From positions 1 through 34,299 of the forward strand of contig JAABSJ010000043.1 of NCBI GenBank assembly GCA_011390515.1: a stretch of 34,299 nucleotides of DNA. Direction: 5' to 3'. A program made the position numbers and the translations under genes. Source of the stretch: Oscillatoria sp. (lineage in GTDB: Bacteria > Cyanobacteriota > Cyanobacteriia > Cyanobacteriales > Laspinemataceae). Positions 19,520-25,888 of this stretch are shown here, one piece after another; positions within the stretch are counted from its first letter, which is position 1, and every line of letters begins with the position of its first letter. The notes under the pieces were generated by a model, which had not been told where the DNA came from, made no database searches, and saw nothing but the letters and a program-made list of their open reading frames with translations.

Positions 19520-22500
19520 TCATTTCCGAGGGCGATCGCTCGGGTTTTTTTCCTCGATTTCACCGGGCGATCGCGGCGTAATCGGTAAACTGATGATAAA
19601 CTCTGTCCCCTCTCCCGGAGTAGAAATACAGCGCAGTTTTCCCCCATGTTTTTCCACCACAATGGAATAAGCAATTGAAAGTCCTAAACCCGTCCCTTTG
19701 CCGACGGGTTTCGTTGTAAAAAACGGGTCAAAAATTTTCAATCGCACCTGTTCACTGATCCCCGGACCATTATCCGCAATCAGAACCTGAACCCAATCGC
19801 GATCGCTGACTTCGGTACGCAGGATAATCCTCGGTAAGCGGGTTTTCCCTGGGTGTAAATCCGATCGCATGACATCGGCAGATGTTACCGAAAAGCTAGA
19901 ATAAGCGTGAGATTCCTCGTGACTTTCCTCGCCGAATCCGTCAAAACCATCCATTGCATCGATCGCATTATTTAAAATATTCATCACCACTTGATTCAGT
20001 TGAGAGGCATAACAAGTAATTTTCGGCAGGTTGCCATATTCCTTGATCACCTCAATTGCGGGATGCCCATTTTTACCCGTTAGACGAGACTGCAAAATTA
20101 ACAGAGTAGAATCAATTCCTTCATGAAGATCCACCTCTTTCATCGCTGATTCATCTAGGCGGGAGAAATTTCGCAATCCCAGAACAATCTGGCGAATGCG
20201 ATCGGCCCCGGTTTTCATAGAAGAGAGCAACCGGGGTAAATCTTCCATTAAAAACTCCAGATCCATGTCCTTGATGGCTGCTTGAATTTCCGGTTTTGAA
20301 TCAGGATATTGTTGCTGATAAAGACAGACTAAGTTAAACAAATCATCCAGATACTCTCCGGCATGATTCAGATTGCCATAGATAAAACTCACCGGGTTAT
20401 TAATTTCATGAGCAATTCCCGCCACCATTTGGCCGAGACTGGACATTTTTTCGGTTTGAATCAGTTGAGCTTGGGTCTGTTTGAGGGTTTCTAGGGTTTG
20501 CGACAAGTGGAGATTTTTTTCATTTAAGGCATCATTGGCTTGATTTAAAGCCTGAGTACGCTCTTGGACTTTGGCTTCCAGGTTGGCATAAAGCAGGGCA
20601 TTTTCTAAGGCGATCGCCGATTGGGAGGAGAGAATTTTCAAAATCTCTAGGCGGTCCCGGGTAAAGGCTCCCCGGGTTAAATTATTTTCTAAATACAGAA
20701 TGCCTAAAGTTTTCCCGCCATTCACAATCGGGGTACATAACAAAGACTTTAACTGATGAGCCACTACATAAGGCTCTTTTGTAAATGCGCCTTCACAAGC
20801 GGCATCACTTAAGACTAAATTAGACCCGGTTCGCGCCACATATTTGACGATCGCCACGGGTAAATCGGAGCAAGTTTCGAGATCAAGGGATTGCTCCACA
20901 GTCACTGCCTCAGCATCAGTAGAAGCGGAGGCAGATATCAACAGTTTGCCGTCCACATCTAAAATTAAAAAGGCTTTTTCGGCACCGGCATTTTCGATCG
21001 CCGTTTTCATCAGGGTCGCCAGCAATTTATCCAGGACAATTTCACTGGCGATCGCTTGTGAGGCTTTCAAGACGGTGGTCAAATCTAGGTGATCGCTACT
21101 CTCCCGAGAGCTTGAAACTCCCCCTTGGCTTGGTTTCTGTCCGTTGGTGGGATGAAATTGCTCCCTCGCGACGGGCAACAAGTGGGAATAGGTAGACTCC
21201 AACTGCTGCACTTTAGCGGTTGCTCCCCATTTTTTATACCCCTCCCGCGCTTCCTGCATATAGGCTTTAGCCGGGGTGAGTTTTCCTAATCCTAAATAAA
21301 ATTTAGCCGCCAATTCGTTGGCGAGGGCAGCTTCTTGCACATACTCCTGTTCTGTAGCGAGTTGAATAGCGCGATCGTACCCGTCCATCGCCTGCAATTT
21401 GTGACCGAGAATGCGGTCCCGTTCGGCCTGAACGAGATCACATTTATGCAAATAATTCATGGGGGCATGATCGGCCCATTTTTTCAGAATTTTTTGGTTC
21501 GTCGTGACTGTTTTGAGGAGAATTTTGCGGTTTTGCTCTTCGGCGCGATCGCACAGGGCCATGCGAGTGAGGGAATCATACCAATAAAACAGTCCGACAA
21601 CCGGCAAGGCGATCGCCCCATCTAAATAGTTCTGAGCTTGTTCGGCATTCACCAGGGCTTCACTGTAATTTTCAAACCAATAACACAGCATTAATTGATT
21701 CACAAAATAATCGTGTAGTCTGTTGCGATCATTGGCTGTAATCATTAAGGGAACCGCTTGCCCCCGATTATAGGCTTCTCCCACTAACTCACCGGGATTT
21801 TCACTTCGTCCCAACAAATTGAGTACCGCTTGCCGATACATTTCATTCCATTGCACCACGGTCATCTGTTGCCATTGGGTTAGGGAATGGCTTAAGGATG
21901 CCATTTCCCGTTCTACTTCATTGAGTTCTGTTCCGATAAAGTATAAGTTTTGACAACGGTTTTTGGCCGCATAAGACGCCCATTCTAAATCTCCATTTTC
22001 AATCCCGCTTTGTTCGGCTTTCCGTAACGGAATCAAGGTTTCCTTCAGATGCACGCTCCAAGGGTTGATGAGCCCTTCTACCATTGTTAAAATTTTGGCA
22101 TTGGCTTGACCTGCACCGAACTGAGATAACAGATTTAAGGCTAATTGTCCAAATTTATAGCCGAGTTCAATTTCACAAAATACGCCGGATAAAATCACGC
22201 CATAGGTGGCATAAGCAAAGGCGGACCAGGGTGAATTTCCATATTGAATCGATAGGTTCACCTGTTCAAATACAATCAGAGGCAGTAAGGAAGGGGCGGC
22301 TTGATAGGCGGAGGATACCAAACTAGAGAGAATTCTCATAGCGGCGAGTTTCTCGGGTTCCATCATGACCGGCAATGCCAGTAAGTCTGTCGGGTCTTTG
22401 TCCCCCATTGCCGTTTGGTTTTTTTTCCGTTGCCGTTGGATATCGGCCCGGGTTGGATTATTGATTAAATCAATCCCGAGTTGTTTAGCAATGTTTACGC

Positions 22501-25108
22501 CAATTTGTAAGGCTTCCAGGGGTTGAGCCTGGGCCATGCAAGATTGAATTTTGAACTCATAAATTTTGACGGCATCAAGCAGGGTTTTACTGGCCTCTAT
22601 GACCGGATTGGCTAATGCCGTCATTTGCGGGAAATCCCCACATAAATAAGCGGATTCTGTGGCTTCTTGATAGAGGGTTAAGGTTAAGTCATAGTGGGTT
22701 TGCCATCGGTCATCACCTAAGCGTTGAATGCCTTGATTCAGATAGTTGAGAGCCGTTTTGTAGGCTGCCGATCGCTTGGCTTTTTGTCCGGCGCTGAGGT
22801 TTAATTGAGCAATTTTTACTTGTTCCCCGGGAGAATCACTCGGTGAGATGCCTTTATTGAGTTGATTGACGATCTCAAACAGGATCTCATCCCGGCGATC
22901 GCTGGGAGTCTGGTTGAGCCAGTATTGTCCGATGCTCAAATGCACCGCAGACTTGGCGACATCGGAAATCAGAGAGTAAACAGCCGCATGAATGCGATCG
23001 TGTACAAATTTGTAGTGCGCGATTAGGCTATCGAGATTGGTTTCTTCATGATTGCCAGCTTTCCACTCGGCGATCGCCACGGACCAATCCGCACTCTCCG
23101 TTGCCGGTAACACAAACCCTTGGGTGACTCCTGCACGCAGATTCGCCGCTGTTTCTTTCACGGACTGCTGGGAAATAGCCGCCAAAGTTTGCAGCTCGAA
23201 GCGTTTACCAATACAAGCTGCCAGCTTGAGTACGGATTGCTCTCGTTCCCCCAGCTTAAGGATTTTTGCCGCCAGCAGTTGCACGACATTATCCGTAATA
23301 GATCGCCGTTTAATTTTCTCAATCGACCACTGCCATGCCAAACTTTTATTATCAAATTCAATTAAGCCATCCTCATATAGACCCGTTAAAAACTCCTGAA
23401 TAAAAAAGGGATTCCCTCCGGTTTTATCTACCACCAATCCCGCCAAGGGTCCGGCTTGTCGTAAGGAACATTGAAAGGTATCGGCCAATAGCTGATTGAT
23501 ACTAACTAATTTTAATGGCTCTAATTCCAGGTGATTGACAATTCCTCCGTTTTGCTCAATTTGGGCCAGCGGGTCTAAAACCGGGGGATCGGTCTCTTTG
23601 AAGGGAACTGGAGATTCTATCTCGCGATAGGATAAAATTAAAAATAGTCCCGGATCTGCCACAGTCATCAGCCGTTCAATCAGGCGCAAAGACCCGGCAT
23701 CCGCCCACTGAATATCGTCTAAAAATAGGGTCAGGGGATGGTGAGGATGGGCGAAAACTTTGATGAAATTTTGAAAGGTCAGATGAAAGCGATTTTCGGC
23801 TTCGGCTGGCGGTAAACTGTTGATGGGCGGTTGCTTGCCCAAAATTAGCTCCATTTCGGGAATCACTTCAACAATCACCTGTCCATTGTTTCCAAGTGCT
23901 ATCCTCAGTTGCTCTTGCCAGCGGTTGAGGCGATCGTCCGTTTCCATGAGCAGGTTAGCCACTAATTCCTCAAAGGCTTTAATCCACCCCAAATAGGGAA
24001 TATCCTGCTGATTTTTGTCAAATTTTCCGGAAATAAAATAGCCATTTTTTTGGGTGATGGGGGATTCAAGTTGCTGCACCAATGCGGTTTTACCGATGCC
24101 GCTTTCCCCGATGACTATCATCACTTCTCGTTGGGAATTTACGGTGCGCTCAAATGCGGCACATAATGTTTTAATTTGAGCTTGCCTTCCATAAAATTTA
24201 GGAGAAATACTAAATTTTCGGCATATATCATTTTCGCCTAAGATAAAATCTTCGATTTCTCCGGTAGCTTCTAATTGCATCAAGCAGACGACTAAATCCG
24301 CTTGGAGTCCCCAGGCACTTTGATAGCGGTCTTCTGCGGTTTTAGAAAGCAATTTCATCACGAGGTCGGAAATGACTTTCGGAATGGAGGGATCAATTTG
24401 ATGCGGGGGAATTGGCTGTTTTGCCAGATGGGAATGGACCAGTTCCATCGGGTCGGGACTGGTAAAGGGGAGTTGGTTGAGCAGGAGTTCGTAGAGGGTG
24501 ACTCCTAGGGAATAAAAGTCGGTCCGATAATCCAGGGTGCGGTTCATCCTGCCGGTTTGTTCCGGGGACATATAGGCGAGTGTCCCTTCTAAAAGGTGGG
24601 GATTTTTTAAGGGGGGATTTTCTTGGGAAACAATGGTGGCAATGCTAAATCCAATCAGCTTGACTTCCTCGGTTTCGGGGTTGAAGAGGATATGCTCTGG
24701 ATTGATATCTTTATGGATGATGTTGGCACTATGTATGGAACTCAGGGCTTCGGAAATTTGAATGGCGAGGGTTAAAAATTCGGCCTGAGTCAAGGCGCGA
24801 TTTTTGATGAATTGTTTTAAGGATTGTCCACCAAAGTCTTCTAAGATTAAGGCGATCGCCTGGTTATACTTTTGCAGGCCATAAGTCTGGACTACTCCGT
24901 CTAAATTGAGCCGATAAATTTCATACTCTTGCTTATATCGGCTGAAATCTCCTGCACTGGATCCCTCGGACTGCAAGATTTTGACGATCGCCGGTAAGTT
25001 ATCTCGCGATCGAATGGTCCGATAGACGATTGACCGAGCGTTTTCGCTCAGTTTGTCAATGATTCTAAAACCGTTGAGGGCTGGGGTCAGTATTTTGCTT
25101 TCTATCAT
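19520..25108 (-). CDS. Giant kinase-like / ATPase / GAF / sensor histidine kinase protein
   Basis: A 1862-residue multidomain signalling protein. In order: a Ser/Thr kinase-like domain (about 10-270); a large AAA-type ATPase module with Walker A GESGIGKT (334-341); a long TPR-like helical region (about 700-1310); a GAF domain (about 1345-1505); a HisKA helix with phospho-acceptor His1567 in [10 protein letters not shown]; and a HATPase_c domain (about 1665-1850) with [24 protein letters not shown] and GTGLGLS. The histidine-kinase half looks intact, with an insert of about 35 residues between the N and G1 boxes. The kinase-like half keeps Lys43 (AIVKIL) and Asp134 (HKDINP), but the metal-binding Asn is His139 and DFG is GFS (153-155), so it is probably a pseudokinase. 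The ATG at 25108 was preferred to an in-frame TTG at 25174. No response regulator is adjacent. No membrane helix is obvious, so it is probably cytoplasmic. Confidence 0.9.
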
Positions 25109-25330
25109 AGGTCCAGTGGGTGGGTTGGTCCAGTCAGAATAGGGAAAATTTAAAATACCCCCAGAACGGTTCAAATCAGTCTTCTCGGGGTGGATTCAAA
25201 CGGGTTTTAGGGTGGCGATCGCCCTTCGCAAGCACGGTGGGTTAAGAACCCTGCTTGCTTTTATTTTCTCAGTTTAACTTAAGCCTTTGTACTTGTCTGT
25301 AAAAAAAATCAGGAAATCTCCACGATATCT

Positions 25331-25474: not shown

Positions 25475-25888
25475 ATGAGCAATCCCTTAAAACACTTAAA
25501 ATATTTACCCTGGACTTCCCTGCTGCCGGTTGCGGGCCTCACGACTCAATTTGTAGCTGCAGTTGAGGTCTGGTTGGGTTATGGTGCCACGCAATCTGGC
25601 GCCCTTCGGAATGCCTTGACTTTACTCTATGCACCTCCTTTAGGAACCTTGGTTTTATTTGCATTGGGGATGGGAATGGGGGCGATCGCTGTCTATGGAT
25701 GCGAACTTTGGAATCGGTCCATGCTCAATACCGGGAGTCTGTGGGCCTTAGCCTTTTGCTTACTCCTCGGTCTGTTCATTAAGTCCCTCCTCCCCATCCC
25801 CGGGTTACTCGTGGATCTTTCCCAACTGTCTTTTATCGCCCTGGTGGTGGGCATTTTCTGGAAGGGCCGACCTTACATCCGCCGCTAA
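25475..25888 (+). CDS. Small integral membrane protein, unknown function
   Basis: A 137-residue protein with about three or four membrane segments: a weaker one at 13-32, a long one at 47-76 (LTLLYAPPLGTLVLFALGMG), then 87-105 and 110-128. It ends in a basic tail, KGRPYIRR. No family is recognised. It starts ATGAGCAATCCC with no clear Shine-Dalgarno. It stands alone, divergent from the giant kinase gene and convergent with the coiled-coil gene downstream. Confidence 0.7.
   Translation: MSNPLKHLKYLPWTSLLPVAGLTTQFVAAVEVWLGYGATQSGALRNALTLLYAPPLGTLVLFALGMGMGAIAVYGCELWNRSMLNTGSLWALAFCLLLGLFIKSLLPIPGLLVDLSQLSFIALVVGIFWKGRPYIRR

Follow-up and report, generated by a model that had tools for sequence, protein, structure and literature searches.

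The stretch of DNA analyzed here (the window, 34,299 nucleotides in full) covers positions 1 to 34,299 of contig JAABSJ010000043.1 in the Oscillatoria sp. assembly GCA_011390515.1. Its minus strand encodes a giant hybrid protein in which a protein-kinase-like domain comes first, followed by an AAA ATPase, a GAF domain, and a histidine kinase, laid out as follows.

19520..25108, minus strand: hybrid pseudokinase-AAA-GAF-histidine kinase of 1862 amino acids, from the open reading frame translation with its ATG at 25108
24284..25081, minus strand: protein-kinase-like domain, residues 10-275 (Pfam PF00069 at residues 24-264, 113 bits)
23651..24199, minus strand: AAA_16 ATPase domain with Walker A and Walker B present (PF13191 at residues 304-486, 136.6 bits; motifs at 334 and 461)
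20606..21034, minus strand: GAF domain (PF01590 at residues 1359-1501)
20150..20437, minus strand: HisKA dimerisation/phospho-acceptor domain, with AHEINNP at 1566 (PF00512 at residues 1558-1653)
19577..20005, minus strand: HATPase_c domain with intact N, G1, F, and G2 boxes (PF02518 at residues 1702-1844)

Besides the ATG at 25108, the reading frame contains an in-frame TTG at 25174; the MIES start is common to all eight orthologs. By Pfam, the kinase-like domain reaches to about 24317, and the stretch 24550-25108, where a sequence-only reading had placed it, holds only about its first 186 residues. That reading also described a module ahead of an intact histidine kinase. The Walker A, Walker B, H-box, N, G1, F, and G2 motifs are indeed present in 7/7 full-length orthologs, the window protein included, but the AAA ATPase, a stretch of about 870 residues that match no Pfam family, and the GAF domain intervene. 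In the eighth ortholog, which lies at a contig end, one letter of the Walker B string is changed and the C-terminal part is missing. An NCBIfam scan of the hybrid protein gave nothing above cut-off among the 25 of 86 families listed.

Residues of the kinase-like domain were numbered from the ATG at 25108 and placed by alignment with 18 paralogs from the same genome and with PknB; from position 139 to position 153, the window domain aligns without gaps to paralogs with the HKDINP motif. Frequencies refer to 203 distinct family domains pooled from 252 loci after one short row (L085) was dropped. The pooled loci include family members at E <= 1e-50 from four genomes (one within the genus, three outside it), and the sample leans toward close cyanobacterial relatives; proteobacterial CP1 members were not deliberately added. 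The active-site features are these.

24980..24982, minus strand: Lys43, the beta3 lysine, kept (K in 202/203 family domains, one gap)
24926..24928, minus strand: Glu61, the alphaC glutamate, kept, placed via the PknB alignment (E in 171, Q in 31, and G in 1 of 203)
24908..24916, minus strand: residues 65-67 at the end of alphaC, with clade-only Tyr65 and a one-residue deletion, by family comparison
24707..24709, minus strand: Asp134, the HRD aspartate (HKD), kept (D in 200, N in 2, and G in 1 of 203)
24692..24694, minus strand: His139 at the position of the metal-binding Asn (H in 8/8 orthologs and 1/195 other family domains)
24650..24652, minus strand: Gly153 at the DFG-Asp position, GFS (G in 8/8 orthologs and 0/195 other family domains)

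Both residues that would hold the catalytic metal are thus replaced in a domain that keeps its beta3 lysine and HRD aspartate, as the sequence-only reading had proposed; the LIDFG that it gave for relatives at this site is also confirmed. Outside the clade, the DFG-Asp is retained in 195/195 family domains and the Asn in 194/195, and the two changes never occur together (0/195). Written as Lys/HRD-Asp/Asn/DFG-Asp, the 203 domains comprise 190 with K/D/N/D, 8 with K/D/H/G (all of them orthologs within the genus), 1 with K/D/H/D, 2 with K/N/N/D, 1 with K/G/N/D, and 1 with a gap at the Lys (L252). The same reading had given the DFG motif as GFS. Of this, only Gly153 is part of the loss; the serine is ordinary, being present in 60/203 family domains, 8 of them clade members, and Ser at the third DFG place is reported in 30 cbSTKIII proteins (Zhang et al. 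2007, PMC2176072). A DFG shifted to a nearby position was looked for in the alignment and rejected: the sole DFG string, residues 91-93 (LEDFGG), lies in the hinge, and canonical relatives have it there too, beside their true DFG.

The motif keeps His132 and continues with Phe154 and Ser155, and the "KD" catalytic loop is present (HKD), with K at that place in 192/203 family domains. Ordinary residues are retained at positions 28, 41, 132, 141, and 154, which we take to form part of the adenine pocket and of the spines. Residue 136, at the catalytic-loop Lys position that we equate with K168 of PKA, is Asn (HKDINP), as it is in 139/196 other family domains. The Gly-rich loop is degenerate (S-E-N-A-R-S, residues 21-26), and it is mostly degenerate family-wide too; its position 23, Asn in the window domain, is Ser for 143 of the 196 others and Gly for 42. 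Glu138, beside His139, is found in the clade alone (0/195 others). An AlphaFold2 model built from 43 sequences (predicted local distance difference test score, 82.3; predicted template modeling score, 0.84) has low confidence at residues 1-8, 162-171 (the activation segment), and 297-303. PknB entries are its best PDB neighbors: 5u94 matches with a Foldseek TMq of 0.76 and a root-mean-square deviation of 2.3, and by VIA-align with a Z of 30.9, a deviation of 2.0, and 254 aligned residues. The predicted fold is that of an ordinary kinase; the model is silent on nucleotide and metal.

His139 and Gly153 occur together in 8/8 analyzed genomes of the genus, which is taken to be Laspinema (Laspinema and relatives). 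Orthologs from the 7/7 other genus genomes, among them Laspinema palackyanum D2a, L. olomoucense D3b, Laspinema sp. D2d, Phormidium pseudopriestleyi FRX01, and Oscillatoria sp. HE19RPO, are 91-94% identical, carry both changes, and have no stop inside the domain. Because the same two residues recur in seven orthologs from separate genomes, we reject sequencing error and single-strain loss; close relatives do share H139 and GFS. Across 243 genomes of the order, the pattern HKDINPxH is found in 7, all in the genus, with 8 matches, and the remaining genus genome has HKDLNP. One of the 8 matches is a paralog in the same genome as the window (L007, G000:C47:277-1197), near a contig end, with His at the Asn position (HKDINPGHLV) and its DFG retained; among the 243 genomes, the pattern turned up this paralog just once.

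Outside the genus, no domain closer than about 62% was found in overlapping sets of 59, 291, and 388 genomes, each with the own genome included, and a contig scan likewise gave nothing above about 62% among the best 80 of 192 relatives. Among the loci searched, the remaining regions of the hybrid protein each point to other best relatives. With the next best domain at about 62% and the protein's regions differing in their best relatives, no ortholog that keeps a canonical domain, the form before the loss, was found outside the genus in the sampled genomes. The genome of the window itself contains 19 domains of the family, the window's included. Among the matches listed, one genus genome has a dense run of nine family domains within 46 kb (G005:C1:2840578-2885992).

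In a midpoint-rooted tree of 202 domains, in which the window sequence stands twice, the genus clade has a support of 100 and a stem of 0.478, longer than the 0.368 that marks the 95th percentile of internal branches (longest, 0.767); branches within the clade are short. The clade also differs at the end of alphaC, where the span from E61 to V73 is 13 residues long rather than the 14 or 15 of 196 others and where Tyr65 is found in 0/196 others. Thus both the metal site and the alphaC end changed along this stem, whichever came first, and have stayed so. Three other family domains (L079, L190, and L249) have lost the HRD-Asp (HKG, HKN, and HQN) with Asn and DFG-Asp intact. Two of them, L079 and L190, fall inside a 22-tip clade around the window (support, 80), as if the lineage had lost active-site residues repeatedly.

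The kinase-like domain of the clade is under strong purifying selection. The ratio of nonsynonymous to synonymous divergence (omega), taken as pairwise Nei-Gojobori means over orthologs (28 pairs, or 21 without the contig-cut ortholog), is 0.134 over residues 1-275 and 0.107 in the kinase C-lobe. It drops to 0.052, the lowest of the stretches compared, over residues 126-190 around the active site. Elsewhere in the protein it is 0.171 for the AAA domain, 0.201 for the middle region, 0.080 for GAF, and 0.159 for the histidine kinase, and a canonical group of five paralogs gives 0.109 for its kinase domain. These values are rough, since ortholog pairs are not independent and the kinase region shows less synonymous divergence than the rest of the gene (dS of 0.239 over 24284-25108 versus 0.343-0.395), but none is near 1. 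The low dS might reflect recombination or constraint on the 5' end.

The gene neighborhood is largely conserved across the genus. A divergently transcribed 137-amino-acid open reading frame at 25475-25888 on the plus strand, hydrophobic by eye, adjoins the hybrid kinase gene in 7/7 ortholog loci fetched; it has no Pfam or NCBIfam match and one PDB-sequence match, at an E value of 0.067. The DUF6464-Fmt side is retained in 5 ortholog loci, is missing from the L062 stretch that was fetched, and is cut off by the contig end in L061. Scans upstream of the gene gave 2 promoter and 2 terminator sites, compared with shuffle means of 0.8 and 0.7, and no tRNA was found in the window.

The window protein belongs to the cbSTKIII family (PMC2176072) and, by description, to the CP1 family (O'Boyle et al. 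2025, PMC12599244). With the cbSTKIII dual kinases of the HstK type (Zhang et al. 2007, PMC2176072) it shares a Ser/Thr kinase joined to GAF, HisKA, and HATPase domains and the "KD" loop. It differs from them in lacking both metal ligands, and cyanobacterial Ser/Thr kinases in general are described there as using a eukaryotic-like catalytic mechanism. It resembles CP1 in that a kinase domain from a cyanobacterium is fused to an ATPase and a GAF, and the GAF/PAS or FhlA-type sensor frequent in that family corresponds to the GAF domain at 1359-1501 here (PMC12599244). The pseudokinases of CP1 are all described as linked to COG3899, a predicted ATPase; in the window protein AAA_16 directly follows the kinase, COG3899 itself lying outside the libraries used. 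The fission yeast (S. pombe) histidine kinases Mak2 and Mak3 also combine an N-terminal Ser/Thr-kinase-like domain, GAF, and a histidine kinase (PMC5383687); they are eukaryotic, and the likeness is one of domain layout.

Pseudokinases are defined by loss of the beta3 Lys, the HRD-Asp, or the DFG-Asp (PMC12599244). At least one of these is missing in 8/8 orthologs, through Gly153, and by the same triad 3/195 other domains in our sample would count as pseudokinases. About 40% of CP1 is reported to be pseudokinases, with varied losses (PMC12599244); if CP1 is this family, most of that share would come from members outside our sample, given the 3/195 found here. Pseudokinases of CP1 are already known, including the tabled Leptospira protein Q8F6Y5 (Hnqigpss, WLG), which likewise lacks Asn and DFG-Asp but has also lost the HRD-Asp and has KILR as its ATP motif. 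The other tabled CP1 example (Hkslcpgn, DFS) has both metal ligands present. Among the CP1 examples in the accessible portion of PMC12599244, none combines His and Gly with a kept Lys and HRD-Asp. A Pseudomonas member of the DLHK family, Q9I0B5 (Hrdlrpas, GFG), also lacks Asn and DFG-Asp, although the family is said to keep Asn; DLHK differs from the window domain in lacking the beta3 Lys and is often joined to helicase-type domains (PMC12599244).

For the substituted residues themselves, human STRAD-alpha is, by analogy, the closest counterpart. It has His200 in place of the Asn and Gly in place of the DFG-Asp (GLR, 213-215), as in H139 and G153 (PMC2686265), and it activates its partner and needs no Mg to bind ATP, whose beta phosphate lies at His200 and Arg215 (PMC2686265, PMC4718504). 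It has, however, lost the beta3 Lys (Arg100) and the HRD-Asp (Ser195), and the window domain keeps Lys43 and Asp134. CASK lacks the DFG-Asp and keeps the beta3 Lys, as in G153 and K43, and is active and inhibited by cations; unlike the degenerate loop here, its Gly-rich loop is kept (PMC4718504, PMC2686265). Both comparisons are drawn from published descriptions and not from sequence or fold matches: STRAD-alpha and CASK were absent among the 60 sequence matches listed and the 50 fold-comparison matches listed.

We favor, with somewhat better than even confidence, a constrained, lineage-specific pseudokinase of the cbSTKIII/CP1 type that probably binds nucleotide and acts in cis on the AAA, GAF, and histidine kinase parts of its own protein. 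A pseudokinase module is the best reading because all eight genomes carry the double loss, purifying selection acts on the domain, and the protein still has an intact histidine kinase. On the genus stem, Asn became His139, the DFG-Asp became Gly153, and the end of alphaC was remodeled, the new state then being retained by purifying selection. Mg-dependent Ser/Thr phosphotransfer by the domain was probably lost. Since Lys43, Glu61, the HRD-Asp, and the hydrophobic pocket positions remain, the domain most likely still binds nucleotide or a protein partner, possibly ATP held without a cation and with His139 near the phosphates, as the behavior of STRAD-alpha with the same two substitutions would suggest. 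Its state may then be relayed via the AAA ATPase and the GAF region to the histidine kinase.

Several points weigh against this interpretation. A pseudokinase with a purely structural role would have no need of the HRD-Asp, the Lys, and the alphaC Glu, yet all three are still there. Arg215, which contacts phosphate in STRAD-alpha, has no counterpart, the window residue being Ser155 (PMC2686265). CASK, as a precedent, shows that loss of the DFG-Asp is no proof of inactivity; to this extent, the argument of the sequence-only reading from missing Mg ligands to a pseudokinase needs more than two residues, even though the loss is real, found in all eight genus genomes analyzed, and constrained. The low kinase-region dS, perhaps from recombination, also blurs the comparison of omega between domains.

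An unlikely alternative is a scaffold for partner docking that binds no nucleotide, in which only the fold would be maintained, so as to contact the AAA region. Such a role would fit the two lost metal ligands, the degenerate Gly-loop, and the constrained C-lobe, but Lys43, Glu61, and Asp134 could then vary freely, and they are present in 8/8 orthologs.

We also consider it doubtful that the domain is an atypical active kinase, transferring phosphate either without Mg in the manner of CASK (PMC4718504, PMC2686265) or with another metal, such as Mn, held by His139, Glu138, and Asp134. ROP5B, in which metal binding has passed to the neighbor of the Asn (PMC4718504), offers a precedent for the second route. 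The presence of Lys43, Glu61, and HRD-Asp134 in 8/8 clade members, the clade-only Glu138 next to His139, and the lowest omega around the active site also speak for an active kinase. Set against these are the degenerate Gly-loop, with Asn at position 23, and the fact that Glu138 need not bind metal. Eukaryotic kinases often have a glutamate at that position.

Decay of the domain by neutral loss, to which two lost conserved residues and a long stem branch might point, is very improbable and is rejected as contradicted by the selection estimate (an omega of 0.13 over the domain) and by seven orthologs at 91-94% identity without an internal stop.

A bolder version of the pseudokinase reading, which we offer tentatively and regard as rather unlikely, is that this hybrid histidine kinase independently evolved the STRAD-alpha solution: cation-free reading of ATP, or reading with Mn via His139 and Glu138, that would make the domain an in-cis nucleotide gauge setting histidine kinase output.

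Most bacterial pseudokinases are said to have seen little experimental study (PMC12599244), and a literature search, limited to the accessible portions of papers, found no publication naming this protein. The value of the case lies in a clean double substitution, its presence in 8/8 genus genomes analyzed, and many canonical paralogs that can serve as controls. Two well-defined changes set the clade apart from canonical paralogs in the same cells, and the intact histidine kinase is a built-in readout. With these in one system, the role of such a pseudokinase can be asked directly.
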